Shown here in pieces: positions 30,079 through 31,516 of a DNA stretch of 64,000 bases. The translations under genes were made by a program, and so were the position numbers. This DNA comes from Sphingobacteriaceae bacterium (lineage in GTDB: Bacteria; Bacteroidota; Bacteroidia; Sphingobacteriales; Sphingobacteriaceae), in NCBI GenBank assembly GCA_029266635.1, contig JAQSWM010000001.1, positions 248,001 through 312,000 of the forward strand. Direction: 5' to 3'. The notes under the pieces were generated by a model. That model ran no database searches. It was not told where the DNA came from and saw only the letters and a list, made by a program, of their open reading frames with translations. Every line of letters begins with the position of its first letter. Position 1 is the stretch's first letter.

Positions 30079-30170
30079 AGTAAAGAATAGATTTTTCAGC
30101 GATTGAACAACAATGATTCCAAAGCACTTTTGGTGACAGGATGACAGCCGCAGCTTAAGTGAAATTATTT

Positions 30171-30200
30171 TTTGATGGCTTTACTGAATTACTATATTTG
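30171..30200 (+). promoter_or_regulatory. Promoter of tRNA-Ser
   Basis: TTTG (30171-30174), 18 bases, TATATTTG (30193-30200), a full match to the Bacteroidota TTTG...TAnnTTTG promoter. The bases right after, CAGTCCC, recur after the tRNA-Pro promoter. Confidence 0.65.
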
Positions 30201-30222
30201 CAGTCCCTTGAAAAAGGGCTTT

Positions 30223-30309
30223 GGTGAGGTGCCTGAGAGGCCGAAAGGATCAGTTTGCTAAACTGACGTACGGGCAACTGTACCGAGGGTTCGAATCCCT
30301 CCCTCACCG
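30223..30309 (+). tRNA. tRNA-Ser (GCU anticodon)
   Basis: Acceptor stem GGTGAGG / CCTCACC, discriminator G, anticodon arm CAGTT-TGCTAA-ACTG with anticodon GCT (decodes AGC/AGU), the long variable arm of class II tRNAs, and T arm GAGGG-TTCGAAT-CCCTC. The CCA end is not encoded. 87 bases. Confidence 0.95.
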
Positions 30310-30330
30310 CCGAATATATTTGAAGATATA

Positions 30331-30361
30331 TTTGATGCAGAAGTAAAAAATACTACTTTTG
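30331..30361 (+). promoter_or_regulatory. Promoter of tRNA-Pro
   Basis: TTTG (30331-30334), exactly 19 bases, TACTTTTG (30354-30361): a consensus Bacteroidota promoter. The transcript should begin near 30368, about 40 bases before the mature tRNA. Confidence 0.7.
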
Positions 30362-30408
30362 CAGTCCCAAACCAGAAAGGCGCTACGGCACCATCTGGTA
30401 CAAAAGTT

Positions 30409-30482
30409 CGGGATGTAGCGTAGCCCGGTATCGCGCCACATTTGGGATGTGGAGGCCGCAGGTTCGAATCCTGCCATCCCGA
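30409..30482 (+). tRNA. tRNA-Pro (UGG anticodon)
   Basis: 74 bases. Acceptor CGGGATG / CATCCCG with discriminator A; anticodon arm CCACA-TTTGGGA-TGTGG with anticodon TGG and G37; T arm GCAGG-TTCGAAT-CCTGC. No encoded CCA. It is the intact left member of a series in which the tRNA 3' half recurs twice downstream. Confidence 0.95.
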
Positions 30483-30488
30483 CTTCTT

Positions 30489-30520
30489 AAAAGCCATTCG
30501 TAAAACGAGTGGCTTTTTTT
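30489..30520 (+). terminator. Terminator of tRNA-Pro (copy 1 of 3)
   Basis: Hairpin AAAAGCCATTCGT / ACGAGTGGCTTTT with AAA loop and T-tract. The same hairpin follows each downstream tRNA remnant. Confidence 0.85.
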
Positions 30521-30531
30521 ATTTTGGCTAA

Positions 30532-30777
30532 ATGTATAACGTCTATATACTTTTCAGCGATTCCACGCTTAAGTATTATACGGGTAGCTGCCAAAACATG
30601 GAGCTCCGCCTTGCGCACCATAATAGCGGCCATAATCGAAGTACAAAAGCAGGTGCGCCGTGGAAGATCATTAAGGTTTATCATGTTGTAGACAGAACCG
30701 AAGCACTCCGGCTGGAGAACAAGATCAAAAAGCGAGGAGCGAAACGATTCCTAAGCGATGAAGGCCTTGCGGGTTGA
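30532..30777 (+). CDS. Small GIY-YIG nuclease-domain protein, copy 1
   Basis: 81 residues consisting only of a GIY-YIG domain of the UPF0213/COG2827 type. The VYI and YTG strands (residues 4-6 and 16-18) correspond to GIY and YIG; Arg26 and the HHN motif follow on the first helix; Glu62 lies in LENKIKKRG at the metal-binding position. The ATG lies only 11 bases behind the T-tract of the tRNA-Pro terminator, so there is no room for its own promoter and expression must come from readthrough. The stop TGA is also the first codon of the conserved tRNA-remnant block. About 80% identical by eye to the second copy at 30877. Confidence 0.85.
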   Translation: MYNVYILFSDSTLKYYTGSCQNMELRLAHHNSGHNRSTKAGAPWKIIKVYHVVDRTEALRLENKIKKRGAKRFLSDEGLAG

Positions 30778-30829
30778 TCGCGTGGCGCTCGGGCGCCAAG
30801 GCCCAGGTTCGAATCCTGCCATCCCGACT
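30775..30829 (+). pseudogene. tRNA-Pro 3'-half remnant, copy 1
   Basis: Starts at the nuclease stop codon and keeps ATCGCG, a 5-bp anticodon-like stem (TGGCG / CGCCA) with a six-base loop CTCGGG, then AGGCC, T arm with TTCGAAT, and the acceptor 3' strand CATCCCGA. No matching CGGGATG 5' strand lies upstream, so it cannot fold into a complete tRNA. One base is missing in the T stem (GGCCCAGG against GGCCGCAGG). Confidence 0.75.
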
Positions 30830-30867
30830 ACAAAAAGCCATTCGCAGAAAGCGAGTGGCTTTTTTGT
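30830..30867 (+). terminator. Terminator, copy 2 of 3
   Basis: Hairpin ACAAAAAGCCATTCGC / GCGAGTGGCTTTTTTGT. Compared with the first copy, a T-A pair next to the loop has become C-G on both arms, a compensatory change that supports selection on the hairpin. Confidence 0.82.
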
Positions 30868-30876
30868 TTTGCTATA

Positions 30877-31119
30877 ATGTATAACGTGTATATCCTTTTC
30901 AGCGATTCAACTCAGAAATTTTATACGGGCAGCTGTCAGGATATGGTTTCACGGCTAATTCACCACAATGCCGGCCACAACCGAAGCACAAAAGCAGGTG
31001 CGCCGTGGAAAATAGCAATGCTCTATCACGTTGCTGACCGGGCTGAAGCATTAAAGCTCGAAATGAAAATCAAGAATCGTGGTGCAAAAAGGTTTCTAGT
31101 GGATGAAGGGCTGGGCTGA
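30877..31119 (+). CDS. Small GIY-YIG nuclease-domain protein, copy 2
   Basis: 80 residues, same family and layout as the copy at 30532: VYI/YTG core, Arg at position 26 of the first helix, HHNAGHNRSTKAGAPWK, and Glu62 in LEMKIKNRG. Most differences from copy 1 lie on one face of the helices and in the 46-56 strand, while catalytic positions are unchanged, which suggests both copies remained under selection rather than being a recent duplication. ATG is 9 bases after the previous T-tract. Ends in TGA, which again opens a tRNA-remnant block. Confidence 0.85.
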   Translation: MYNVYILFSDSTQKFYTGSCQDMVSRLIHHNAGHNRSTKAGAPWKIAMLYHVADRAEALKLEMKIKNRGAKRFLVDEGLG

Positions 31120-31169
31120 TCGCGTGGCGCTCGGGCGCCAAGGCCGCAGGTTCGAATCCTGCCATCCGA
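31117..31169 (+). pseudogene. tRNA-Pro 3'-half remnant, copy 2
   Basis: Same TGATCGCG start, TGGCG-CTCGGG-CGCCA arm, GGCCGCAGG, TTCGAAT loop and acceptor strand, but the acceptor end reads CATCCGA with one C missing. It cannot form the tRNA acceptor stem. Confidence 0.75.
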
Positions 31170-31175
31170 CTTCTT

Positions 31176-31208
31176 AAAAGCCATTCGTAAAAACGAGTGG
31201 CTTTTTTG
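31176..31208 (+). terminator. Terminator, copy 3 of 3
   Basis: Hairpin AAAAGCCATTCGT / ACGAGTGGCTTTT with AAAA loop and T-tract, nearly identical to the tRNA-Pro terminator at 30489. It faces the convergent UbiA-like gene. Confidence 0.82.
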
Positions 31209-31232
31209 TTTGGGCCTAACCCCACGGGCAAT

Positions 31233-31516
31233 TCACTCCCACAAGTTTATCAAAGGAATCAGCCCGAACCAGATCAGATAAACCAGAGACGTAATCAACA
31301 AGCCATCTATCCTCTTTGGCGGGTTATGGCTCGTGAAATAGCGCCGGATGAGAATTAAGAGAAGCACAATATTCGGAACTGCAAAGTATAGTATCCCTTC
31401 AAAAGCAGGCTTGTAGTGCATGCTTAGAGAAATTGTGGCAATTAGCGATGTACAGGCAAATCCCAGGGCGATAATGGAAGCGGCTTTTTTTCCAAACCTT
31501 ACGGCGATCGTTCTTT
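31233..31516 (-). pseudogene. 3' part of the UbiA-like domain, in the -1 frame
   Basis: Continues the upstream oxidoreductase-UbiA gene in another frame. Reading back from the short frame with ATG at 31421, open codons extend to the frameshift near 31513 and give RTIAVRFGKKAAS, the usual continuation of the UbiA second Asp motif (DYEADKLAGK followed by RT.AVR.G). The remaining about 90 residues form three hydrophobic helices (FEGILYFAVPNIVLLLILI and LLITSLVYLIWFGLIPLI), matching the last helices of UbiA enzymes. Read alone it could be taken for a 62-residue membrane protein, but the homology argument favours a broken fusion gene or a programmed -1 frameshift. Confidence 0.65.

Follow-up and report, generated by a model that had tools for sequence, protein, structure and literature searches.

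Integrase-type elements, such as islands and prophages, restore the tRNA gene that they enter with a 3′ end that they carry, and tRNA 3′ ends are the usual sites of integrases. In addition to these, three endonuclease-based systems come close to the locus described here. The mORFs of fungal mitochondria, at atp6 of Allomyces and at atp6, atp9, cox2, and nad3 of Glomus, are portrayed in the available excerpt of one report as a homing endonuclease gene (GIY-YIG at atp9) joined to a 3′ end that restores the host gene, with the native 3′ end displaced behind it (PMC3630166). SegB of phages T4 and T6 appears in the excerpt of a second report as a free-standing GIY-YIG nuclease encoded beside tRNA genes, with nuclease-dependent tandem repeats of tRNA and nuclease gene (PMC13096335). 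Finally, an intron endonuclease of tRNA-fMet is linked to the anticodon region of the tRNA gene, according to a title cited in PMC3984707.

Here we analyze a 64,000-nucleotide stretch of DNA (the window) from Sphingobacteriaceae bacterium (GCA_029266635.1, contig JAQSWM010000001.1, positions 248,001 to 312,000, forward strand; coordinates below are window positions), in which an intact tRNA-Pro(TGG) gene precedes two successive blocks, each made of a GIY-YIG gene, an incomplete tRNA-Pro copy, and a terminator. The layout resembles a minimal selfish element, so far overlooked, whose home is tRNA genes. Integrase-type elements likewise restore the tRNA, whereas the unit described here has no integrase and also exists in versions with the 5′ part of the tRNA. 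The architecture of the mORFs fits, with an endonuclease gene beside an intact host gene and a partial copy that may be the displaced end; the excerpt describes single units in protein genes of organelles, whereas here bacterial tRNA genes are concerned, either the 3′ or the 5′ part is copied, the copy holds a hairpin, and units stack (PMC3630166). Tandem repeats of nuclease gene and tRNA are shared with SegB (40 of 112 loci inspected here hold 2 to 8 nuclease matches, with partial tRNA copies), but SegB is phage-borne and its whole tRNA is amplified under selection, and the excerpt describes neither disabled partial copies of a resident tRNA nor cassettes in bacterial chromosomes (PMC13096335). 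The tRNA-fMet intron endonuclease has the anticodon region as its target as well, although there, as far as the cited title goes, RNA splicing saves the gene, whereas here duplication appears to do so and the Rfam scan of window positions 30100-31400 found no intron (PMC3984707). By title or abstract, none of the matches listed in the open-access literature concerns a bacterial tRNA-linked GIY-YIG element.

The tRNA-Pro locus and other GIY-YIG genes of the same genome

The features of the locus are collected in Table 1. Direct repeats are spaced by 345 for a 253-nt block that is 72% identical, by 345 and 343 for a 47-nt tRNA 3′ block, and by 344 and 343 for the terminators. An earlier note on this DNA had described an intact tRNA-Pro and terminator followed by a block that occurs twice at a period of about 345, with each nuclease stop codon forming the first codon of the tRNA block, and both descriptions were borne out: the period is 343 to 345, and the two TGA stops (30775-30777 and 31117-31119) are the first triplets of the tRNA-Pro copies. 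The copies are devoid of the tRNA 5′ end and start before the anticodon arm, which in both is replaced by the hairpin TGGCGC-TCGG-GCGCCA. The second copy, in which the missing acceptor-end base is a C, is also called as a degenerate tRNA at 22.7 bits, under the Rfam threshold. While the three terminators fold far better than shuffled sequences, the tRNA copies fold no better than shuffles (z +0.5 and -0.4), and the intact tRNA itself reaches only -1.3.

Table 1. Features of the tRNA-Pro locus, in window positions
Feature	Position	Strand	Basis
tRNA-Ser(GCT), intact neighbor, no unit	30223..30311	+	ARAGORN; Rfam RF00005
tRNA-Pro(TGG), intact, resident (target) gene	30409..30483	+	ARAGORN; Rfam 69.3 bits
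Intrinsic terminator 1	30489..30521	+	Sequence; fold z -6.2
GIY-YIG nuclease gene 1, 81 aa	30532..30777	+	ORF; PF01541 5.1e-12
Partial tRNA-Pro copy 1, stop codon to acceptor 3′ end	30775..30828	+	Sequence, repeats
Hairpin TGGCGC/GCGCCA replacing the anticodon arm, copy 1	30783..30798	+	Same stem in L266, L267, L111, L137
Terminator 2	30832..30866	+	Repeat; fold z -7.7
GIY-YIG nuclease gene 2, 80 aa	30877..31119	+	ORF; PF01541 8e-11
Partial tRNA-Pro copy 2, one acceptor-end base lost	31117..31170	+	Sequence, ARAGORN, Rfam
Hairpin TGGCGC/GCGCCA, copy 2	31125..31140	+	Sequence, fold
Terminator 3	31176..31208	+	Repeat; fold z -7.4

No group I intron was found at 30100-31400 in an Rfam scan with E up to 0.1, and the GIY-YIG gene is the sole ORF of the unit in the ORF list of the window, with no integrase or recombinase. 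The arrays listed in this study have periods of about 306 to 450 bp, which leave no room for an integrase gene.

The source genome (G000; G numbers denote genomes, one per species, and L numbers inspected loci) holds nine GIY-YIG matches, two of them in the window. Another contig carries a third, downstream of a tRNA-Asp gene; next come a tRNA-Asp copy (identical in 47 of 58 aligned columns), then a terminator and what is left of a second nuclease gene. This tRNA-Asp copy is thus that of the resident tRNA and not a fixed piece of tRNA-Pro. The remaining six matches have no tRNA within their loci of about 3.2 kb. By eye, the tRNA-less genes at L001, L002, and L003 (contig C17) lie among imperfect palindromic repeats, for example GTCACGCTGAGCGGAGTCGAAG, which links GIY-YIG genes to repeats in another, REP-like way.

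Distribution, tRNA copies, and nuclease lineages

Within the family, a protein search gave matches in 43 of 121 genomes, and a profile search across the phylum (Bacteroidota) hit 188 of 296 genomes, which represent 101 of 140 genera; linkage to tRNA genes was examined in the fetched loci. The locus sample is not random, being made up of best-scoring matches and hand-picked stretches: 58 loci from searches, 60 chosen stretches, and L004 and L005 give 120, from which eight were left out, namely seven that overlap other stretches (L032, L038, L045, L047, L049, L052, and L098) and L081, a separate tRNA-Asn locus of G303 with tRNA-Asn, nuclease, and Asn copy that enters the later tree but not the 112. 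The window itself (L025 and L101) is represented by L005. Because of a weak copy or mixed context, L040 and L066 stand outside the anticodon-arm and the spacer and arm-retention counts, and L026, L040, L066, L068, and L103 outside the breakpoint count; the tmRNA locus L054 stands outside the cognate-copy, hairpin, arm-retention, spacer, and breakpoint counts.

A tRNA or tmRNA gene lies on the same strand within 250 bp of the nuclease array in 102 of the 112 loci, so defined, and five more, all carrying a tRNA-like match (weakest score, 18), sit close to the end of a contig. Among the other five, the tRNA of L055 is 315 bp away and that of L124, a tRNA-Ser, lies between its two nuclease genes; L122 has an Asp-like fragment, L056 has Val-like fragments but no complete tRNA in the stretch read, and L075 has just an Ala-like fragment about 1 kb off. 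The 112 protein rows comprise Ser, Val, Asp, Arg, Pro, Asn, Ala, Leu, Met, Thr, Gly, and tmRNA, with one further locus read as Phe that is probably a Val copy, so that 11 or more tRNA isotypes are represented among the inspected loci. The tRNA-linked arrangement of the nucleases is real and general and not a local oddity. A contig search with a single protein returned four loci, three of which (Cyclobacteriaceae, Ignavibacteria, and Saprospiraceae MAGs) adjoin tRNA-Pro with a Pro copy, the fourth (Arenibacter) being truncated with no tRNA in view. Plasmids gave no match for the window protein, and viral contigs searched with one Val-type query gave 11 pattern matches with no relative among them. 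High identity across host families was sought as a sign of transfer; the best pair reached 66%, and recent long-distance transfer is therefore not seen.

Counting truncated genes, 72 of the 112 loci hold one nuclease match and 40 hold two to eight. Examples of arrays are L055 (8 units, period 358), L105 (5 full units, period 315), L106 (5 full units, period 450), and L057 (4 units), and some arrays hold identical units. Several loci depart from this pattern. In L055 (G112), nuclease-less units of about 131 bp are mixed with the 358-bp units (reverse strand, 1680-1950), and the array is also broken by a transposase-like gene. Three units with Val-like copies in L056 (G090) have no intact tRNA in 3.5 kb, a possible orphan array, and in L054 (G113) the nuclease gene lies 138 bp behind tmRNA rather than a tRNA. 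At L267:1919-2298 (Ignavibacteria MAG), tRNA-Pro(CGG) runs straight into the start codon of the nuclease gene, no terminator intervening, and the first nuclease codons recur behind the tRNA copy. Arrays of degenerate tRNAs without a nuclease gene (period, 111 to 120) lie directly upstream of an intact tRNA in L058 (1132-1575), where they contain hairpins, and also in L046 and L071; these are possibly non-autonomous relatives of the units.

Most copies match the tRNA beside which they lie. The resident tRNA outscored all tRNAs of other isotypes against the element region in 84 of 102 loci; in nine more it was beaten or tied only by the sequence of L036, a Val copy read as Gln by ARAGORN and itself one of these nine, and the final nine had no clear cognate copy. 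Resident tRNAs scored 26 at the median and other tRNAs 11, and the best score among shuffled controls (20 per resident tRNA, 102 loci) was 18. Most units lie downstream of the tRNA and have a copy of its 3′ part; the others, mainly at Arg and Ser genes with some at Ala and Pro and one at Asp, lie upstream with a copy of the 5′ part. The contiguous match of downstream copies starts at tRNA positions 40 to 51 in 33 of 61 and at 56 to 59 in 14 of 61, and upstream copies, scattered over a range of 21 to 75, end most commonly at 34 to 35 (8 of 21). The breakpoints of both sets indicate the anticodon arm, those of the upstream copies being more widely scattered. The 17-nt anticodon arm is kept in 5 of 89 recognizable copies, 4 of them of tRNA-Arg(CCT); in downstream copies 17 nt of the T/acceptor arm are exact in 32 of 76 and the anticodon arm in 2 of 76, and in upstream copies tRNA nucleotides 3 to 14 are exact in 13 of 24.

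Hairpins are often inserted at the break of the copies. The Pro lineage has the TGGCGC/GCGCCA stem of the window in L266, L267, L111, and L137 as well, whose hosts are a Cyclobacteriaceae MAG, an Ignavibacteria MAG, and members of two other families. The possibility that the hairpin is a dispersed mobile repeat was rejected: the pattern TCCCGAN{2,12}TCGGGA occurs at 7, 16, and 20 sites in G000, G112, and G176, compared with 3, 1, and 1 for the reversed pattern, and 12 of the 16 sites in G112 sit within the array.

The GIY-YIG domain has conserved Tyr, Gly, Arg, and Glu residues with catalytic roles. PF01541 scored above its cutoff in all five nucleases scanned (5e-12 and 8e-11 for the window pair), and in 32 proteins S9, Y16, G18, R26, H30, and K66 are invariant, with E62 present in at least 90%. 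The first structures matched by the profile are UPF0213 and SLX1; matches to phage homing endonucleases are weak (4 of 32 members for the commonest family), and those to group I intron endonucleases fall below the cutoff. Against anti-phage defense families, PADLOC gave no match for the window protein and weak matches for 3 to 6 of 32 members per family, the best with an E of about 1e-4. In a tree of 95 proteins (one per genome and isotype; the proteins are short and many forks are unresolved), isotype required 28 changes, compared with a mean of 66.9 when shuffled and 63.9 when shuffled within host family, and host family required 45 changes compared with 54.3 shuffled. The nuclease tree thus follows tRNA isotype better than host family, if not strictly, as two nucleases at tRNA-Pro (G444 and G459) fall near the Val lineage. 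The columns most informative on isotype are mainly residues 64 to 75 and 33 to 43, which are plausible DNA contacts.

The nucleases are maintained by purifying selection. The two window ORFs are saturated at synonymous sites (pS 0.80) and conserved as proteins (pN 0.135), and therefore the pair is neither decaying nor a recent duplication; in three other nuclease sets dN/dS was 0.08 to 0.15, with one close pair at 0.44.

Occupied and empty sites

At the same tRNA site, both occupied and empty alleles are present (trxB/tRNA-Pro, tRNA-Arg, and tRNA-Ser). The first of these was followed within one genus, in which trxB was found in 59 of 61 genomes and the best 30 loci were read. Units were present in four species (G176, G421, G459, and G444), fragments alone in three (G451, G465, and G420, with both strands searched), and neither in 22, with one locus at a contig end; the array of G421 runs beyond the locus read before reaching its tRNA. 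On the trxB tree, presence requires four changes, of which the starred branches force three. The nucleases of G176 and G421 are of the Pro lineage, and those of G444 and G459 are nearest the Val lineage; two lineages at one tRNA-Pro point to more than one arrival there, and the pattern is hard to explain without gains. The strand of the tRNA-Pro beside trxB varies between species of this genus (L195, L198, L199, and others).

At a tRNA-Arg site, G112 is occupied and G083 empty, with a neighboring protein that is 99% identical; in the allele of G112, the 40 bp that follow the tRNA occur twice. The intact tRNA-Arg is identical in the two genomes, so that self-protection of the invaded allele is unexplained, which counts against the homing model. 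Behind recO, the tRNA-Val of G112 has eight units and short units, that of G083 one short unit, and that of G017 none; units are present in G107 as well, whereas G096, whose tRNA pair is interrupted by an assembly gap, shows none behind the terminator in the approximately 150 bases that follow the pair. In the remaining 11 loci read, no tRNA lies at this place. A tRNA-Ser site of the upstream type is occupied in G112, G083, and G096 and empty without a scar in G017, which has the flank of G096; seven others have neither nuclease nor 5′ copy, and G107 has a nuclease remnant. The empty alleles of G083 (tRNA-Arg) and G017 (tRNA-Ser) could be losses through recombination between the repeats. For the site in the window itself, no orthologous empty site was found: the upstream neighbor htpG is present in 33 of 41 relatives, 30 loci were read, and, the source genome aside, the tRNA-Ser/tRNA-Pro pair adjoins it in none.

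These comparisons bear on what the earlier note had proposed. Its integrase-free module of about 345 bp, consisting of a GIY-YIG gene and a piece of tRNA that stacks in tandem, is supported, with arrays of up to eight units. The unit does recur at other tRNA loci, at tRNA-Asp of the same genome and at 11 or more isotypes in the phylum, and relatives do differ in copy number and have empty sites, at the trxB/tRNA-Pro, tRNA-Arg, tRNA-Val, and tRNA-Ser sites. An old, fixed duplication, with constant copy number and position and neither empty sites nor other loci, is contradicted by both observations. In the window the units do lie behind tRNA-Pro, but such units are not specific for tRNA-Pro, and the breakpoints suggest attack inside the tRNA near the anticodon arm; similarly, a copy of the 3′ end is found in most units but not in those that lie upstream with a 5′ part.

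The terminator, which the earlier note had counted as a part of the unit, is probably not a defining one. Terminators of units resemble those of the local host locus (G444 compared with the empty G463), a run of five T is present in 55 of 76 downstream spacers, and the last terminator of the G421 array differs from the rest with no clear direction of displacement. As they are like those of the local host, donor-borne and duplicated parts are indistinguishable. The tRNA piece and the terminator behave like host DNA, and the nuclease gene and the hairpin appear to travel together.

A possible cycle and its alternatives

Our results lead us to favor, as a somewhat probable reading, that the units are free-standing homing endonuclease cassettes: they would strike the tRNA gene in its anticodon region, make it whole again with the copy that they bring, and be able to enter anew and stack. 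From the sequences we infer the following cycle of cutting, transfer, and expression. The mobile cassette would be free of intron and integrase and consist of one GIY-YIG gene of about 80 codons and a disabled partial copy of the adjoining tRNA. A nuclease of a lineage largely specific for one isotype would cleave a tRNA gene that is still free of units, within the anticodon arm or close beside it. Repair of the break would draw on the invaded allele, through the tRNA half at one end and the partial copy with its flank at the other. This repair would copy the nuclease gene in and leave one complete tRNA, with the displaced part on the far side, usually with a hairpin instead of an intact anticodon arm, and mostly as a 3′ part downstream, otherwise as a 5′ part upstream. 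As a complete, cuttable tRNA would always remain, the event could recur and units would stack in tandem; recombination between the tRNA and a copy would remove units without a scar.

The nuclease would probably be expressed by read-through of transcripts that start at the tRNA promoter, either beyond the terminator or, in the upstream type, within the tRNA precursor, and would thereby be kept rare. The spacer of the downstream type has a median of 48 bp, and in the upstream type the nuclease gene sits between the tRNA promoter and the tRNA. A promoter of the nuclease's own was considered and set aside: TAnnTTTG, the -7 motif of Bacteroidota promoters, is present in 3 of 76 spacers compared with 19 of 76 stretches before the tRNA, which lends slight support to read-through.

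It is rather unlikely, in our judgment, that the nuclease acts as a local amplifier that breaks its own tRNA, so that unequal recombination resizes the array and empty sites are not invaded, as for SegB in T6. Tandem arrays, some of identical units, and the short units without a nuclease gene would be expected from such a process, for which the nuclease-dependent 718-bp tRNA-Tyr/segB repeats in the available excerpt are a precedent (PMC13096335), but sparse occupancy and the presence of two lineages at one orthologous tRNA in one genus suggest arrivals from outside, and 72 of 112 loci hold a single nuclease match. Mobility guided by structure, in which a UPF0213/SLX1-like nuclease would recognize hairpins (the anticodon arm and its replacement) in a manner akin to REP-like hairpin transposition, seems unlikely. 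The first structure matches of the profile, the Pro-lineage stem common to distant hosts, the hairpins that by eye lie at similar places with differing sequences in copies of the same isotype, and the other GIY-YIG genes of the source genome that by eye lie among repeats are consistent with it, yet the TCCCGA..TCGGGA hairpin forms no large dispersed family (7, 16, and 20 sites compared with 3, 1, and 1), and lineages structured by isotype suggest recognition of sequence.

That the units are useful to the host, with nuclease and att-like copies guarding tRNA genes from phages and islands by cutting attP or serving as decoys, we regard as very unlikely: the general use of tRNA 3′ ends by integrases and the purifying selection on the nucleases would suit such a role, but upstream units with a 5′ part misfit as decoys of a 3′ end, occupancy is patchy in close species, and the PADLOC matches are weak. 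Least credible, and extremely unlikely, is that tRNA genes were long ago duplicated in tandem, by chance together with a nuclease gene, and then decayed; tandem duplication and decay had been the alternative named in the earlier note. The copies are indeed broken tRNAs, and three species at the trxB site have fragments only, but units at many isotypes and sites, their cognate copies, and empty orthologous sites speak against it, and so does the constraint on the window nucleases.

Beyond the homing cassettes that we favor, a more far-reaching proposal, which we hold to be rather improbable, is that the units represent a phylum-wide group of undescribed tRNA-gene parasites with isotype lineages, which would recognize the anticodon hairpin by its structure through a GIY-YIG enzyme, use no integrase, transposase, or intron, rebuild the tRNA from a partial copy, and mark displaced parts with a hairpin, and thus embody a new mode of mobility and not a variant of homing.

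If the homing reading is true, the essential tRNA genes of many Bacteroidota are home to tiny selfish elements, which would be annotated just as isolated GIY-YIG genes (nuclease match in 188 of 296 sampled genomes), and units of about 345 bp would rank as very small self-promoting DNA elements. They would show that an element can inhabit an essential RNA gene without an intron or integrase, and they would explain many tRNA pseudogenes. They would also supply nucleases of about 80 residues that are already adapted to individual isotypes, and would make homing and tandem amplification in the bacterial chromosome readily accessible to study.
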